From: Citrus sinensis
Taxonomy: Eukaryota; Streptophyta; Magnoliopsida; Sapindales; Rutaceae
Assembly (NCBI RefSeq): GCF_022201045.2
Contig: NC_068558.1
Span: forward strand, 47,967,501-48,031,500
DNA: 64,000 nt
Direction: 5' to 3'
Numbering within the stretch: position 1 is the first letter of the stretch; every line of letters starts with the position of its first letter. Of the stretch, positions 13,130-24,523 are shown piece after piece. The position numbers were made by a program, and so were the translations under genes. The notes below the pieces were generated by a model. It saw only the letters and a program-made list of their open reading frames with translations. It had not been told where the DNA came from and searched no databases.

Positions 13130-14091
13130 CGTATTAAATAAAATAAAAATAAGTGGAGTCACAAGGACTACGTGCATTCGAACTTAATGCGTGCCACTGT
13201 GAGACATGAGAATCACGCAAATTGATGATGGTCTTACTTTTCATTAAAATCATCAAATTTCTTATGGGAAAAAACAGTTGCTTTTAAAAGTCCCATGAAT
13301 ATGATAAGCGATCAAAGATGATGGGCAAGTGTAACGAACAGTGGACTCTCAAGCGTGTGAAAAAAGCCTCTTTTTTAAGTCATTAAAACATTTGAAAATC
13401 AACCAAAACAAAAACGTTGCCGACTGGTACCTCAACCTCCAACCATTGAGTTTGAGTTAACTCAAATGTCTTAACCATGGTTACTTTTTTAACTCTTTAG
13501 TCTACTTACTTAACCACGGTCCAATTATGCAGTGATGTAGAGAGAGCGAGCGAAAACAAAACAAAACAAAACGAAATCACCTGCATTTCTCTCTGGCACG
13601 CCCCTCTATTTCTCTCTCTTTCTGTTACCTTTTTCTTTTTCTTCATTTGGGAAAAAAATTCTTTAACCGATTGTGTGTTTGTTCTCCGGGAAAACTTGTT
13701 TCCGAAATTGAACTGTTAATTTTTTTCCGGGAAAATTTACAACTTCCTCAAGTCTCACCGCTCAGCTCTGCCTTTTGCTGTCTATCACTATCCCAAATTG
13801 CTTCCCTTGACCGGTGTGTATAAGCTTTTACTCTTTCGATTGATTTTAGTGTATTTCCTTATTTGGGTTTTATTTATTACTTAGCTCTTATATATAGCTT
13901 GTGAGATCTGAAATCATAGGGATATCCTCTCATGTAACAATAGCCATGTGGGGTTTTCTTATTTATTTGAATGTGTCAAATTTCAGTGTATAGGTATTGG
14001 TTTGTTGGGTTTTAGAGTAGATTTGATCTGGGTTTTTGAAAATTGTTTAGCATTAAATTGTTTTGGGGCCTTTTTTTTTTAAGGTTTAGAT

Positions 14092-15933
14092 ATGAAAATA
14101 GAGTTTAATATGGGAGGTAATTTGTGGAATGATGAGGATAAGGCTATGGGAGCAGCTGTTTTGGGAACAAGAGCTTTTGATTACTTACTGACGAGCTCAA
14201 TTTCGAATGAGAACCTTTTAATGGCTGTTGGCAGTGATGAAGATTTACAAAATAAGCTTTCTGATCTCGTGGACAGGCCTAACGCGTCAAATTTTAGCTG
14301 GAATTATGCTATCTTTTGGCAAATTTCGCGGTCTAAGTCAGGTGATTGGGTTTTAGGATGGGGAGATGGGTCTTGTAGAGAGCCTAAAGAAGGTGAAGAA
14401 TCAGAAGCTACGAGAATTCCTAATATCAGGCTTGAAGATGAAACTCAACAGAGGATGAGAAAAAGGGTTTTGCAGAAACTGCATACTTTATTTGGTGGAT
14501 CAGATGAGGATAATTATGCTTTGGGATTGGATAGGGTTACTGATACTGAGATGTTCTTTTTGGCATCTATGTATTTCTCCTTTCCTCGTGGAGAAGGTGG
14601 CCCAGGCAAGTGTTTTGCCTCTGGGAAGCATGTGTGGTTATTGGATGCCTTGAAGTTGAGTTCTGATTACTGCGTGAGGTCTTTTCTTGCAAAGTCTGCC
14701 AGAATTCAGACCATCGTTTTGATCTCGACTGATGCTGGGGTTGTTGAATTGGGCTCTGTCAGATCAGTACCAGAAAGCTTGGAATTGGTGCACTCAATTA
14801 GGGCTACCTTTTCTTCAAACTCTTCTTTAGCCAGGGTTAAGCCAATGGCTGTTGCATTACCAGTTACAAGTGAGAAGAAAGATGAGAATGGTCTGTTTCC
14901 TAATTTGGGCATTTTGGACAGAGTTGAAGGAGTTCCAAAGATTTTTGGTCAGGAATTGAACAACTCGGGCCATGTTCATACCCATTTTAGTAGGGAGAAA
15001 CTTGCTGTTAGAAAGATGGAAGAAAGGCCTTCATGGGAAGCTTACACAAATGGAAATAGGACTGCATTTCCGGGTATTCGAAATGGTGTTCATGGTTTTA
15101 GTTGGGGAAATGTTCAAGGAGTGAAACAAGGGATCGCAACTGAAATCTTTGGTTCGCAAACTAACAATTTGCAAGAGCTGGTTAATGGGGTTAGGGAAGA
15201 TTTTCGGATTAACCACTATCAGTCACAAAAGCCAATGCAAATGCAGATTGATTTCTCTGGGGCTACTTCGAGGCCTAATGTGATCGCCAGACCACTGAAT
15301 GCTGATTCTGAGCATTCTGACGTGGAAGCTTCTTGCAGGGATGAGCGTACAGGCACAGTTGAGGAGAGAAGGCCTCGGAAAAGAGGTAGAAAGCCCGCAA
15401 ATGGAAGAGAAGAGCCTCTCAACCACGTGGAGGCGGAGAGGCAACGGCGTGAGAAGCTAAACCAACGGTTCTATGCATTACGAGCTGTGGTACCTAACAT
15501 ATCCAAGATGGATAAAGCATCGTTGCTGGGAGATGCCATTGCTTACATCAATGAGCTTCAAGCAAAGCTAAAGGTCATGGAAGCAGAGAGGGAGAACCTA
15601 AGTGGCAACTCCAGAGACTTGTCTGCCTTTGAGTCGAATCCTAATGTGGAAAGTCAGAACCGAGCCCCTGATGTTGATATTCAAGCTGCCCATGATGAGG
15701 TGGTTGTAAGAGTGAGCTGTCCTCTTGATTCACATCCTGCATCAAGAGTCATCCAAGCTTTTAAAGACGCACAAATCACAGTTGTGGAGTCAAAACTTTC
15801 TACTGGAAATGATATGGTATTTCACACATTTGTAATCAAATCTCAGGGATCGGAGCAGTTGACAAAAGAGAAGTTGATTGCAGCATTTTCCTGCGAATCA
15901 AGCTCAATACAGCCATTATCATCAGTTGGGTAG
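14092..15933 (+). CDS. BHLH13: bHLH transcription factor, bHLH13/JAM2 type
   Basis: Single-exon 613-residue nuclear protein. Residues about 25-205 form a bHLH-MYC_N domain, with [30 protein letters not shown] recognisable in two halves, and [15 protein letters not shown] near 165-180; in the MYC family this region binds JAZ proteins and Mediator. The basic helix-loop-helix spans about 443-493 ([16 protein letters not shown]), with His445, Glu449 and Arg453 for G-box contact. An ACT-like region fills 535-610. In Arabidopsis the bHLH13/bHLH3/bHLH17 (JAM) group represses jasmonate responses by competing with MYC2. A second in-frame ATG at 14110 aligns better with my memory of the Arabidopsis start, so six N-terminal residues are uncertain. 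A 5' UTR intron is possible, with a GT near 13814 and an AG near 14083. Confidence 0.93.
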
Positions 15934-17027: not shown

Positions 17028-18149
17028 ATAGAGTAAGATTCTCAAATCAAGTTCTTTAGCTTTTTCTGTCTCAGTAACCAACGGAAAACGCCTTGAGAAT
17101 TTAGATGCACATGGAAATGCGAAGGGAACCATTTTGTTGTTAAAATCTAAGCCATCCCTTTAAATTTCTCCTTTCTATAAAGAGGATTTGAGGTATCTCC
17201 ACTCCAATCTCGGCAGAAAAAAAGATTGAAAGTAAAAGGTAAACGAATGAGAAAATCAGAGGGGAAAACCAAATGTGTCCGGAATAGCTTGTATAGCAAT
17301 CAATGATTATTGATTTGCATAAACAAAATTGAAAACACTAACGAACACAAAAATTATGGTGTGGTCCATTGATCTCCGCGTTGCGCCCGTGAAGATATTT
17401 AACCAATGAACTAGCATTGACAAAATGTCATGTGGTACATGTGCAGTCTTCCAGAAAAGCTCTCAAGTCAAAACTTTGAAGAACTACACCTAAATGGGAA
17501 CGCCATGTTGATTGGTAACCAAACCAAAACCCAAGAAGCCCGTGCCCGCTGCCATGCCACTCAAAAGTCATTGCATGATTATTTCTTTCCTTCCCATACC
17601 ACAGTTTTAGGATGAATCTTTATCCTCAGTTATTCAATTATAACCACAAACTACTTGTTTATAACCCACAGTCACAGCATGGAAAATGGACAAAGGCTGA
17701 TGAAAACATGCGGCCAAAACATGGCTCACAAAATTCCATATACTTTCATCTAATGTCCACCGACCCATTAAATCACATCTGGGTCCCCCTTATTTTTATT
17801 TTCTCTTCATTTATCTTGTTGAAATTTCTCTCTTTCCCTGAGACCCACATTGAGTTTCATGAGGATTACCAATGTGAGAAGTGAGAACGAGCACAAAGAG
17901 GCGCAAGAGCGTGCCATGTGATTGTTTAATTTGGCGCCTACGACTTTTAGTATAAATACAATTCTATCTCTATCCACGTCAAACCTTTAATTTAGTTGTG
18001 TGAACGCCTGTACCAGTTTGGTGTCATCTTGACAAATAAGATATTATGAATTTCAAATTTCATGATTATATTATGAATTTCAAATTTCATGATTCACACT
18101 TGAAAATATATAATTTATTTATAGCATTGATCATTGTTAGAGATAAGAA

Positions 18150-18645
18150 AATTTAACATGGCCCGATTGCCTAACATGAACGCAATACGAATAAAATATA
18201 ATTATTAAATGGATCGGGTCTGAATCAACAAGTTTTTTCATGTTAGGTTAAGGTTAAAGTTCTTATTCCATTTATCCGATTATTATCAATAACATGTTTA
18301 TATTTTCTATTCTAAATTAATTTAGAGATTTTTTTTATTAAAATTAAAAAAATTGTACATAATTCTCTCTTTTTGTTTTTATTTTTTTTGAGGATGAATA
18401 TATACGCAGTGTTCCATTTTTAAATTTTTATTTAGATTTAGAACTTCAATAATATAAATATGTAAATTTTGATAGATGTGTATAAATATTAAGCGGGTTA
18501 TTAGATAATTCACTTATTTTCCGTATTAGGTTAGAGTCCCAATATTTGGACACGATTACTAAATCGTTTGGATTGATATAAATTTGACACGATACAAAGC
18601 TAGCGCGACATGAACATGACCCAATGATCCATTTTGGCAGCTCAA
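18150..18645. mobile_element. Possible hAT-like transposon remnant
   Basis: The block is rimmed by GC-richer sequence: ATGGCCCGATTGCC near 18158 and GACATGAACATGACCC... TTTTGGCAGCTC near 18607-18642. The interior is AT-rich, a pattern common in short hAT-type elements. No clean terminal repeat or target duplication was found, so this is tentative. Confidence 0.25.
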
Positions 18646-19868
18646 GTTAGAGCGAGCTACCAGTATTTTAGTTTATACTAAATATTGTTAATGTCGAGAA
18701 TATTGAAGAATTTGATTATCTTCTTTTTTATGAGGAACAAGATTCACAAAGGAAACGTTCGGGGAGCACATTTCATTGTGGCAAAACAGATTTAATTTCT
18801 AATGTGAAAATCAGTTTGTTTGTGTAGGAATAATTCCAACACCAGGTTCCTCACCATGATAGGTAATATTAAATGTTTAGGCTGCAACTGTTTCTGGATT
18901 TTTCAATTTTTACTCCAACTTCAGTTTCAGCTTTGAATTGACCTCTCCATTAATCTCCCACTGAAGAGAAAAAGCGAGAGAGCTCTTTCTGTAAATGATA
19001 ACTTGATTTACCTGTACACAAGCCACGGAGAATTTGACTATTAAATATTATTTTAATAACTGAATTAAGAAACAAACGAAAAATGAATGTCCAGAAAAAA
19101 CTCACAGATTGCCGAACACATCTTGGGACCGTTCGGCACTTGACATACAGAAGGCAGAAACAGAGCGTGGACTTCATGGAACTGTTTTCTTTCTTTAATT
19201 ATAACTAATCATGTTGTTTTGTAACTCTGGTTTGAATATTTACAATAACAACAACAACAATAAAGTGTCGGTGGTAATGATCGGACTTTGGCTTAATTCC
19301 ATTAATCGGATACAAATGATCATTAAGGTTACATCATTGCATCTTAATCAAATATTCATTGAACTCAATTCTAGCCAGACTAGTTGAGGACGAGCGAGGG
19401 TATCAACAGGCAAAAAAAAAAAAAAAAAAATCATGAAAATTTACAAAAAAGACTACGTTAGGCCAGCCAGGGAACAAAGTCAAGAAACCAAGATCCTTAG
19501 CAAGAATGATCAAAGCTTGGATAAAGAACAAAAGTATGCAAACCCAAGCCGAATACAATTGACAAAGACCATCCAAGGCTGATAGCTTGTCAAGACAAAT
19601 AGGTTTGGCCATTGCAGTGGAATCTGCTATACAGTCTATTCATGTTCTTGGGTGAAAATTTTACAAGCAGCATTGCAGGATTTACATAAGATGAACACTT
19701 ACTGAAAACTAGGGCTCAGCAGTCCAGCAATCTTCCTGTGGAAAATTATCCTGCAAAGCTTTGTACTCCCAACTCTAAATGAAATCAAACAGCTACACTG
19801 AGTTGGTTTTAACCTGTTAGTGGAAATCAGCTATTCTCCTACTCTTATCAAACTTGTTAACCTTTGTA

Positions 19869-20733
19869 TCAGCAGGGGCAGTTGTCGTTAATTTCCTGGT
19901 GTAGCCTCTTATTGTGACAATGTTTGGCCACATGCCCCTTCTTCCGACAATTGTAGCAGACTACAGTCTTGCTATCCATCTCTGATTCTCGCCTCTTCTT
20001 GCTCATCTCTCTCATCCTTGGACCAAAATTTACAGCTGGAGATAACTCTACAAACTTGGAAGGCTCTTCTTGCTTGTTATGGCTACGAGATTCTTCCTCT
20101 GCCTTTATATGATCCATCAACATTGTGAAAGTAAGGTATTCCATTCGCATCAACTTAATGCAGAAGTCCTTCCAAGACAGGGGAAGCTTGGAAAGGATGA
20201 CGCTAACATGAAAATTCTCATAAATCATCATGCCAGCAGCAACAATGGAATCAGCAATCTTATTCAGTTCTAGAGCTTGCTCAAAGACTGATTTCTCATC
20301 AAACATCTGAAATTCAATGTACTTCTTAACTTGAGATCTCTTTGTTCCAAATTCCTCATCAAGGTAAACTAATTTCAGCTCTTCCCATAGTTCTTTGGCA
20401 CTACTGGTTCTTTTTGAGTACTGATAATAAAGGTGATCAGATAGAAAGTTTAAAATGTGGTGGCGACATATGTTGTTGTCATTCAACCACTTTCTTTCAG
20501 CAGCCTTGACTCTTGTTACTTCTTCAGAGCTAGCTTGAGGGCATAGAGTAACAATAGGGCATGGGTCAGTGAGGACATATGCAACCTTTAATTGCTTTAA
20601 AAGAAGTTCTATCTGTTGCGCCCAGACCCGGTAATTCTTCCCATTGAAACGGTGGAGCTCAGTGGGAAAAAGTTCAAGAGGTGAAGTCACTGAATTTGCC
20701 ACATCTTTGTTTTGTTCACCACTGGATTCAGAT
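19869..20733 (-). other. Copia Gag-like exon, apparently domesticated
   Basis: Open for 288 codons with no stop or frameshift. It carries FNGKNYRVWAQQIELLLKQL near its N-terminus, WEELKLVY, and a C-terminal zinc knuckle (CYNCRKKGHVAKHC), then stops eleven codons after KRLH. No protease, integrase or reverse transcriptase follows on either strand, and no LTRs were seen. Its first in-frame ATG comes well inside the domain; the reading frame opens directly from a TGTAG acceptor at 20734-20738, as an exon would. A free-standing element is therefore unlikely. Confidence 0.7.
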
Positions 20734-21986
20734 CTACAGTATATCGATTACATGGTTGAAGTCAGAATCATTTTGTTACCTGCTTTATAGGCAGAAAGTG
20801 ATTATAAAAAAAAAGCCTTTAAAATGAGGACATGCTCAAGTACATACTAGAACATCATTGTGTCCACTTGAATGTTTATTTCCATTTTAAAGCCAAGAAA
20901 ACCCGCATACTTGATATCAAAAAATGACTTCAAACATCAATGCAGTATCTCTCACCTTAACTTAGATTGCATCTTCACAACAGCTTCATCTATTGCAGGG
21001 AGACTTTTACTGAAGGCTCTCCATTGTTCACTAGTCAACGCAATTCCTAATGTAGAGGGAGGAAAAATGCTTTTAGAAGTAAAACGTTAGTGTGATTAAA
21101 AAAAAAAAAGGATAGTTGATGATAGGCCCCAATAACTTCAAAGTTTATGACAAAATTAATATTATAAAAGAACGTAAATTGTCGAAGAAATGTACTGTAT
21201 AGACAGCATACGGAAGGCCTCAAAACTTGAAAAGTATCATTGTAGCAAGGGTTCCAAGCCTGTGAGTGCAAGGTTAAATACAAGCTAACAAAATTTCTCA
21301 TTCATAACAGGTGACGGGTAATTCTTGGAATACTGAGTACTAGTGGTACGGAGATTGTTAAGGCACCTACATGACAAACTCATAAGCGCACACTTTAAAT
21401 ATAAATGCATCAATAAATTATTTCTCAATGTCGCAGAGTTGTTGCAATTAAATATAACAGGAAATGTATAGTTCACCTTTAGCTGTAGGAACCAGCTTTC
21501 CGTCTCTTCGAAAATATTCCCTAATTGATACAAAAGCTCTCCCTTTGAATTCTTGAATTGCAACGGTCCTCTTGTTTGAGAGCTAAAGAAAATTTAAAAG
21601 AACAGCATATCTCTAATATATATAAAGGGGGAAAAAGAACCCAAAAAAATTATAAAATATGTCAAATATTTTAATTTTATATATGTTTTGTTTACCTTGC
21701 AAATAATCGAATCGCCGTCATCGTTAATGCGTTTCCCGATCTGGGCTCGTTGCTCTTCAACTTCCAAATCCGGTTCTATACGATTGTCTGTGCTTTCGGT
21801 GGTGGAGAGCAAAAACGACTCAACAACTCCTCTGATAAACCTCTTGTGATTGGCGTCAGAGAGGTCTATTCCCAGTCGCTCAGAGGCCTCAACACGGACT
21901 TTGAACTCAGTCATCTCCTCCATGTCGGAATTTTTCAGTACTTCCATCACTGTTTGTCGGATTCTTCCTTCATTTACTGTTTCCAT
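19869..21986 (-). CDS. KELP: KELP transcriptional coactivator gene with optional in-frame Gag/zinc-knuckle exon
   Basis: Four predicted exons: 21696-21986, 21477-21582, 20956-21046 and 19869-20733, total 1353 nt, 450 residues. Residues 1-70 resemble a DEK_C domain (TEFKVRVEASERLGIDLS). Residues about 88-162 are the PC4/p15 single-strand DNA-binding domain (DDGDSIICK, then TVAIQEFKG and SIREYF), as in plant KELP, a nuclear RNA polymerase II coactivator. Exon 4 encodes a copia-type Gag (UBN2-like) domain at about 178-395 and a CCHC knuckle C422-X2-C425-X4-H430-X4-C435. If intron 3 is retained, TGA at 20952-20954 ends a normal 163-residue KELP. That TGA lies inside the donor AG|GTGAG, and an AATAAA on the minus strand at 20875-20880 could support the short form. 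Phases match at every junction. The KELP exons are firm; use of exon 4 is inference. Confidence 0.8.
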
Positions 21987-22039
21987 CTTCCAGCAAGCGA
22001 AACGAATAGCTAAAGTAATAGAATTCCTAGTTGTAATTA

Positions 22040-22125
22040 ATGTTTTGAAAGCAATTAGCAGCTAAAAGCAAAATATTAAAGCTAGGCCTGGGGTTTGAAT
22101 CCCCCCCAATTTTACTTGCTAGGCT
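22040..22125 (-). pseudogene. Degenerate copy of the tRNA flank and T-arm
   Basis: Sequence near 22035-22085 (AATTAATGTTTTGAAAG... CTAAAAGCAAAATA) repeats that at 22145-22192 next to the tRNA gene. It is followed by GGGGTTTGAATCCCC, which on the minus strand resembles a tRNA T-arm. No acceptor stem or anticodon arm remains. Probably a decayed duplicate of the tRNA 3' end. Confidence 0.35.
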
Positions 22126-22194
22126 GGTTTATCACCCCCATGCAATTAATGTCTTGACTTTTGAGAGTAATTAACATCTAAAAGCAAAATAATA

Positions 22195-22266
22195 AGGTTC
22201 CACCGAGATTTGAACTCGGGTTACTGGATTCAGAGTCCAATGTCCTAACCACTAGACCATGGAACC
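22195..22266 (-). tRNA. trnQ-CUG: tRNA-Gln (CUG)
   Basis: A 72-nt cloverleaf with no intron. The acceptor stem GGTTCCA pairs perfectly with TGGAACC. The D-arm carries the A-box-like TGGTCTAGTGGTTAGGA. The anticodon loop is CTCTGAA, giving anticodon CUG. The T-arm is CCGAG-TTCAAAT-CTCGG, and the discriminator base is T. This is the usual plant nuclear tRNA-Gln sequence. A tRNA-Gln also lies between bHLH13 and CYP703A2 in Arabidopsis (At1g01270, from memory). Confidence 0.97.
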
Positions 22267-22722
22267 GATTGTTGGTTAGGCTTTAAAATGTTTTTATCAA
22301 CTTCTTTCTTGGCCGGGTTAGGATTGCATTTCAAGCGGGCGGGGTCGCGGGGGTATCATGTACTTTGAACTAGGGGTGGGCATAAACATGCAAACGCCAT
22401 TTCTTTGAAGTTGGAGACCATTAAGTATCACCACTCATTGCATGTTCTACCAACCAATAAAATTTGAATCGATTTTTTACTTTTCTTCTTTTCTTTAATC
22501 AACCATTATCTATGGATAAAACACTGCATTTAAAGATTGTGGATGTTAATAATCTATATATATACAGACACTCACACAAACACACACACACACAGGAGCA
22601 AATATTTGAGATGAAAATTGTGACATCATGTTAGGCTTCTGACTGAAACACATTTTGCCAATAGATGAATGAACTAGACAAAAATATCTAGTTTTTATTA
22701 GCTCAATAAATCGGTAGTAGTC
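22267..22722. promoter_or_regulatory. CYP703A promoter region
   Basis: AT-rich spacer between tRNA-Gln and CYP703A. It holds a TATATATATAC stretch near 22556-22566 that could be the TATA box, followed by a CA repeat (22569-22595). Anther-specific elements cannot be judged by eye. Confidence 0.35.
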
Positions 22723-24523
22723 ATGGACTTCGCTACATTTGCATTAATTCTTCTATTTTCATCTATCATCGCCGACATTATACGCCGTTTCCAAAACCAG
22801 AAGTTCTTTCACCAGACGAAAAGGCTTCCTCCAGGCCCACCAAAATTGCCCATCGTTGGCAACCTTCTCCAGTTGAGCCAACTGCCACACAGAGATTTAG
22901 CTTCATTGTGTGACAAATATGGTCCATTGGTCTACCTTCGTCTAGGTAGCGTCGATGCCATCACCACTAACGACCCCGACATCATACGTGAAATACTTCT
23001 CCGGCAAGATGAAGTGTTTGCTTCCCGGCCACGGACACTTGCGGCCGTCCATCTCGCCTACGGCTGCGGAGATGTGGCCTTGGCCCCGTTAGGCCCGCAT
23101 TGGAAGAGGATGCGAAGAATTTGCATGGAGAACCTCTTAACAACCAAGAGACTGGAGTCGTTTGTGACACACCGGGCCGATGAAGCCAAACATCTTGTTC
23201 AAGATGTTTGGGGCCGGGCCCAGAGTGGGAAGCCCGTGAATTTGAGGGACGTGTTGGGTGCATTTTCTATGAATAATGTGACCAGAATGCTACTAGGGAA
23301 GCAATATTTTGGAGGCGGATCTGCCGGCCCAGAAGAAGCCATGGAGTTCATGCACATAACTCACGAGTTGTTTAGGCTTTTGGGAGTGATTTATTTGGGT
23401 GATTATTTGCCAATTTGGAGGTGGGTTGATCCTCATGGATGTGAAAAGAAAATGCGGGAAGTTGAAAAGAGAGTGGATGATTTTCACACCAAGATTATTG
23501 AAGAACATAGAAAGGCGAGAAAGGACAAGAGAAATTCAGTTAATGAAGAAGATGGTGAAGCGATGGATTTTGTGGACGTTTTGTTGTCTTTGCCCGGTGA
23601 AAATGGAAAAGAGCACATGGATGATGTCGAAATTAAAGCTCTAATTCAGGTCATTTATTTCTTACAACTTCTAATAATGTATATAATTGAGTGGCTTATA
23701 TATATATAGTCATGATTTTATGCGCACTATTACTTATAGTGTGCAATAAGATCCATGTCGAGAATTTAATAGTAGAATTGTGAGACCGATAAAATATCTC
23801 CTACTAATAAATTTTAACACCCATAGTGTATGTTGGCAGATATATATATTTTGAATTATATGTGTAATTGTGTGGCGTTTTTAGGATATGATAGCGGCCG
23901 CAACTGACACTTCAGCTGTGACGAATGAGTGGGCAATGGCAGAAGTGATCAAGCACCCACGTATTCTTCGCAAGATTCAGGAAGAGCTTGATTCTGTTGT
24001 AGGTCCAAATCGAATGGTCAATGAACAAGACTTGCCCCACCTTAATTACCTACGATGTGTAGTACGTGAAACATTCCGCATGCACCCTGCCGGTCCCTTT
24101 CTCATCCTCCACGAATCTTTACGCGCCACAACAATTAACGGCTATCACATTCCAGCTAAGACACGTGTCTTCATCAATACACACGGGCTGGGTCGAAACA
24201 CCAGGATATGGAACGACATTGAACAGTTTCGGCCCGAGAGGCACTGGTTGGCTGACGGGAGCCGAGTCGAGATAAGCCATGGAGCCGATTTCAAGATACT
24301 GCCATTTAGTGCTGGTAAGAGAAAGTGTCCGGGCGCGCCGCTTGGGATTACTTTGGTGCTAATGGCTTTGGCTCGGCTTTTTCACTGTTTTGATTGGACA
24401 CCCCCGGAGGGTTTGAGGCCTGAAGATATTGATACAAGTGAGGTTTATGGGATGACCATGCCAAAAGCCCAGCCATTATTGGCCCTTCCAAGGCCGCGTT
24501 TGGCAGATCACATGTACCACTGA
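22723..24523 (+). CDS. CYP703A2: Cytochrome P450 CYP703A, fatty acid in-chain hydroxylase
   Basis: Two exons, 22723-23649 and 23885-24523, encode 521 residues; the join is in phase (...ALIQ/DMIAAATDTS). An N-terminal membrane anchor (about 3-20) precedes the PPGPP hinge at 36-40. The I-helix shows AATDTS (314-319), the K-helix ETFR (371-374), the PERF region FRPER (424-428) and the haem loop FSAGKRKCPG with ligand Cys457. LPHRDLASLCDKYGPLVYLRLG and IWRWVDPHGCEKKMREVEKRV (each in parts) are hallmarks of CYP703. In Arabidopsis and rice CYP703A hydroxylates lauric acid in chain, in the ER of tapetal cells, giving monomers for sporopollenin and the anther cuticle. Length and single intron fit the family. 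The donor is GTCATT, a weak consensus, but the reading frame demands it. Confidence 0.96.

Follow-up and report, generated by a model that had tools for sequence, protein, structure and literature searches.

A probable KELP-Gag fusion gene in Citrus sinensis with a predicted splice donor at the homologous KELP stop codon

Fusions of the plant protein KELP with a transposon-derived Gag have already been published. The sunflower gene HadGAG2 combines the DEK_C and PC4 domains of KELP with a copia-type Gag domain (PF14223) and a zinc knuckle or knuckles in a multi-exon gene without LTRs, according to the available passages of a long-read study (PMC9784723). In the same passages, HadGAG2 is equated with Ctrg10 of Wang and Han (2021), homologues are reported from 24 plant families, the number of zinc knuckles is given as one, two, five or six, depending on the architecture, and a role of Ctrg10 against retroelements or viruses is proposed (PMC9784723). 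The Arabidopsis protein AT4G00980 is entered in Table 2 of PMC4759884 as a member of the zinc knuckle (CCHC-type) family with DUF4219, UBN2_2 Gag and zf-CCHC_4 domains, and as an interactor of the ATR1 effector group; in the accessible text of PMC3633942 and PMC2837038, it is merely listed. In the table of a review, KELP itself appears among the host factors that act against the movement of tomato mosaic virus (PMC6804339). AT4G00980 is probably the Arabidopsis form of the KELP-Gag fusion. We assume that it, too, carries a KELP part.

The window analysed here, a stretch of 64,000 nucleotides of Citrus sinensis DNA (NC_068558.1, positions 47,967,501 to 48,031,500), very probably contains a plant KELP-Gag fusion of the Ctrg10 (HadGAG2) kind, as judged from an open model of 450 codons with the domain set of these proteins. 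As in Ctrg10/HadGAG2, DEK_C and PC4 are located N-terminally, PF14223 is present, the gene is predicted to consist of multiple exons, and no LTR was found between positions 18000 and 23500. In comparison with these proteins, to which it is likened by architecture, the citrus gene has one knuckle motif, which scores below the Pfam cut-off. A preliminary description of this DNA, made from the letters alone, suggested that plant KELP-like proteins with a zinc knuckle may already be known, and the published passages on HadGAG2 and Ctrg10 bear this out (PMC9784723). The one fresh detail offered by the citrus locus is a predicted splice donor at the homologous KELP stop codon.

The gene runs on the minus strand from position 21986 to position 19869. 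Its four predicted exons (291 + 106 + 91 + 865 nt, together 1353 nt) form an uninterrupted frame of 450 codons plus a stop, and the introns are in phases 0, 1 and 2. Exon 1 (21986-21696, 291 nt) contains the start codon, the DEK_C domain, a linker and the first residues of PC4, and it ends at the phase 0 donor AAG/GTAAAC. The bulk of the PC4 single-strand DNA-binding domain is encoded by exon 2 (21582-21477, 106 nt), while exon 3 (21046-20956, 91 nt) specifies the end of the KELP part (...KMQSKL), which aligns with the end of a standalone KELP of the same genome (...KMQSRIM-stop). Intron 3 (20955-20734, 222 nt, phase 2) starts with GTGAGAGAT; its donor reads AAG/GTGAGAG and its acceptor, preceded by a weak pyrimidine tract, reads ACTGTAG/ATC. 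When the KELP frame is read through into this intron, it stops at KLR-TGA (TGA at 20954-20952) after 163 amino acids; an AATAAA follows at 20880-20875. Exon 4 (20733-19869, 865 nt) encodes a full-length copia-type Gag (capsid) and a CCHC motif. The 20956/20733 junction is a predicted one, its splicing being taken from the gene model. On the sequence, the coordinates, the exon structure, the length of 1353 nt, the KLR-TGA end, and the donor and acceptor of the preliminary description were all recovered.

In Pfam searches with the 450-residue product, DEK_C (E 2.5e-12) and PC4 (E 2.1e-18) were both found above the cut-off, and Retrotran_gag_2 (PF14223) was matched with an E value of 3.4e-22 and 79.2 bits against a cut-off of 27. 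The zf-CCHC match (PF00098; 16.1 bits, E 0.012) remained under the Pfam cut-off of 20.8, with the C-x2-C-x4-H-x4-C pattern intact, and a DUF4219 match in the product was also under the cut-off. In a phmmer search of the PDB, the N-terminal part matched MoSub1 and PC4 proteins, the Gag part matched the Copia VLP protein 8vvw (residues 242-442, E 5.9e-7), and the C-terminal end matched nucleocapsid knuckles (E 0.005 and weaker). AlphaFold, run on exon 4 without an alignment, gave no usable model (mean pLDDT 39.8). The Gag part would most likely contribute self-association and RNA binding to a nucleic-acid-binding regulator, and the whole protein perhaps acts against retroelements or viruses, by analogy with what was proposed for Ctrg10.

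The Gag exon was also used to search the genome from which the window derives (299.7 Mb, 11 contigs), and the best 136 of 2111 first-look candidates were scored, which makes all repeat counts minimum values. These 136 comprised the gene itself, one close copy, and otherwise sequences of at most 44 % identity. The best-scoring transposon group within the same best 136 of 2111 is about 38 % identical to exon 4, and some of its members have open frames of more than 1300 residues. Over its full length, exon 4 is 37-38 % identical to the Gags of 18 transposons of the nearest family; these 18, all the transposon loci retrieved, are on average 98 % identical to one another. The likeness to copia Gag, be it 8vvw or the genomic elements at about 38 % identity, extends over the full length and includes the CCHC motif. 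In 10 of the 18, the match starts at residue 10 of exon 4, with a methionine directly before it in the transposon. Exon 4 begins about nine residues before the start of the transposon Gag and ends just past the knuckle, whereas the transposon frames continue. One transposon open frame of 805 residues (L018), which extends past gag, matches the window over gag only. LTR-like direct repeats were absent from positions 18000-23500, where just three direct-repeat families of 25-37 nt were detected. The citrus gene differs from copia elements in that no LTR and no match past gag were found and in that the Gag is, by prediction, spliced to a host gene. A live copia retrotransposon was rejected as an explanation on the grounds that no LTR was found in 18000-23500, that no match to the related frame L018 extends beyond gag, and that the sequence is not repeated among the best 136 of 2111 matches. 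Exon 4 is not a live element: the scored matches include a single close copy of it, which is part of a recent duplication of about 80 kb, and it shares 38 % identity with the nearest transposons. The earlier reading of the exon as a domesticated Gag without pol and LTRs, and not as a live element, holds up on the full-length Gag homology, the single close copy among the scored matches, the LTR search of 18000-23500 and the gag-only match to L018.

When neutral decay of exon 4 to 38 % identity was simulated by substitutions only, none of 2000 frames stayed open (mean 9.8 stops). The exon 4 frame has therefore not been drifting through the whole time since the split, the simulated outcome being the same for constraint as a transposon before capture and as a host gene after it. 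The Gag part of the KELP-Gag gene may be under selection. None of seven pattern-matching stretches was confirmed as a relative when viral contigs were scanned with the Gag exon, and none of 49 when genome contigs were scanned with the PC4-plus-Gag part.

On the same contig, at a distance of 254 kb, the second KELP-Gag copy lies inside the duplication of about 80 kb. The duplicated sequence (G000:C3:47692865-47773666) is in the same orientation and could be aligned over 79 kb in nine pieces of 97.6-99.5 % identity, with pieces of less than 400 bases and one side match of 82 % left out. It spans positions 1-60263 of the window with small gaps and continues past the left edge of the aligned stretch. 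The sequence immediately to the right of the end of the first copy recurs at C3:47497706 with 99 % identity. The repeat reflects either a recent tandem duplication of approximately 250-275 kb or two haplotypes placed consecutively in the assembly. Over 4501 bases, the two gene copies differ in 16 alignment columns, two of them in exon 4, one in an intron and 13 outside the gene. The two coding differences (2/1353) are V178M and a silent change; both copies are intact, and the donor and acceptor are unchanged. At two coding differences, dN/dS between the copies is meaningless, and silent sites should be saturated in a comparison with the 38 %-identity transposons. In the duplicate, V178M turns the codon for residue 15 of exon 4, near the old Gag start, into ATG; in the window copy, no methionine precedes residue 143 of the exon. 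The previous statement that exon 4 has no ATG near its start is therefore correct for the window copy but not for the duplicate.

The standalone KELP gene (L006), so named by its DEK_C-PC4 likeness, is a paralogue of the fusion gene. Its modelled exons measure 294, 106 and 95 nt with the stop counted, and they encode 164 amino acids. The two genes are similar along the protein and share the length of exon 2 (106 nt), the phases of introns 1 and 2, a nearby tRNA-Gln gene and the stop; they differ in that the standalone KELP gene has no Gag exon. A further PC4 gene is present in the genome (L007), which resembles KIWI. The tRNA-Gln(CTG) gene is located at 22195-22266 of the window, on the minus strand and 208 bp upstream of the start codon of the fusion; its counterpart (7278-7349 of L006, minus strand) is located 2.1 kb upstream of the standalone KELP gene, in both cases on the same strand as the gene. 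A 96-base stretch containing the tRNA gene has seven matches in the genome, namely the two fusion-locus copies, the KELP locus and four others. At three of the seven, a KELP-family gene follows closely on the same strand, two of these three being the duplicated copies. The presence of tRNA-Gln at both loci supports the descent of KELP and the fusion from one duplicated stretch.

KELP would, according to such a descent, have been duplicated together with the linked tRNA-Gln gene, and a copia-type gag would have come to lie immediately downstream of one duplicate. Once the extreme end of the KELP frame was spliced to the sequence directly ahead of the gag start, a single protein would have resulted, with a single-strand DNA-binding coactivator module at its N-terminus and a capsid/zinc-knuckle module at its C-terminus. 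It might be argued that two separate genes are present, a KELP and a residual gag frame that is not spliced to it, as the gag frame is downstream on the same strand and the duplicate copy has an ATG for residue 15 of exon 4. In the window copy, however, no methionine stands ahead of residue 143 of exon 4, the acceptor of this exon continues the frame left by a consensus donor, and the literature describes the same architecture as that of a single protein whose homologues occur in 24 plant families (PMC9784723); two separate genes are extremely improbable. Within the favoured fusion gene, the stop codon in the donor of intron 3 had been suggested to act as a switch: retention of the intron or polyadenylation within it would give a KELP of 163 residues, splicing the fusion of 450 residues, in a regulated proportion. 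The unspliced frame does end as a complete KELP, 163 amino acids long against 164 for the standalone protein, and the AATAAA is present in intron 3 as described, while the 668 bases searched 3' of the exon 4 stop contain one AATGAA but no AATAAA. Yet the stop comes automatically with the splice site, since the first base of a phase-2 intron is the third of a codon and the next three bases of a GTRAG donor read TAA or TGA, and taken alone it was rejected as evidence. The AATAAA was likewise set aside, as 17 % of 2000 sequences made by shuffling the bases of the 222-nt intron contain one, about one in six. Moreover, the genome has a standalone KELP gene, so a short KELP need not derive from the fusion gene, and retention of intron 3 would put at least 1083 bases (218 of the intron and 865 of exon 4) behind the stop, making the transcript prone to decay. 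In plants, transcripts with 3' ends of this length tend to be degraded or retained in the nucleus. The switch is unsupported rather than refuted, and we consider it very unlikely.

The gene itself is more than chance; the stop in its donor is not, and becomes informative only beside the paralogue. The standalone KELP ends in ...KMQSRIM-TGA and the KELP frame of the fusion in ...KMQSKLR-TGA, at a homologous codon with an identical triplet, and the first nine bases of intron 3 are the stop context of the standalone gene, GTGAGAGAT, with a mismatch on each side. Over the exon 3 region up to the stop, 63 of 92 bases are identical between the two genes. Identity is 8/15 for the last 15 coding bases and 5/5 for the next five after the stop; it amounts to 11/20, 21/50 and 60/200 bases when counted further past the stop. 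These comparisons suggest that the donor of the fusion may be the ancestral KELP stop with its flanks (G-TGA-GAGAT), the stop having become the start of the intron and its donor-like shape having eased the capture, a reading that we hold tentatively, at close to an even prospect. It draws on one paralogue pair in one genome, in which both fusion copies count as one. Alternatively, the intron could have arisen independently of the old KELP stop, the common GTGAGAGAT being due to chance, an account that competes with this origin of the donor alone. The donor consensus by itself yields TGA, the comparison is that of a single paralogue pair, and beyond the first five post-stop bases the identity drops to 16/45 and then 39/150, against 27 % expected by chance. 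Such an accident has to explain, on the other hand, why intron 3 begins exactly at the homologous stop codon and why all five bases after it match, for which the probability, computed post hoc, is about 0.0015, or about 0.0004 with the preceding G. An accident is plausible, if somewhat short of even. A relation between stop and donor was not found in the available passages of the literature on the fusion (PMC9784723), the search on stop codons and donors having been narrow.

If the donor does derive from the old KELP stop, the gene would keep a built-in stop that could still be read when the intron is not removed. Should such an origin hold across plants, it would provide a simple route by which a protein gains a C-terminal transposon domain while the old stop is kept; frames ending in G-TGA-G or G-TAA-G already hold half a donor.

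Two neighbouring genes were noted in the window. A cytochrome P450 gene at 22702-24523 on the plus strand, identified with Pfam from its first open frame only, is positioned head to head with the fusion gene. It is presumably CYP703-like. An open frame of 616 residues at 14083-15933, also on the plus strand, contains bHLH-MYC_N and HLH domains and is apparently intronless.
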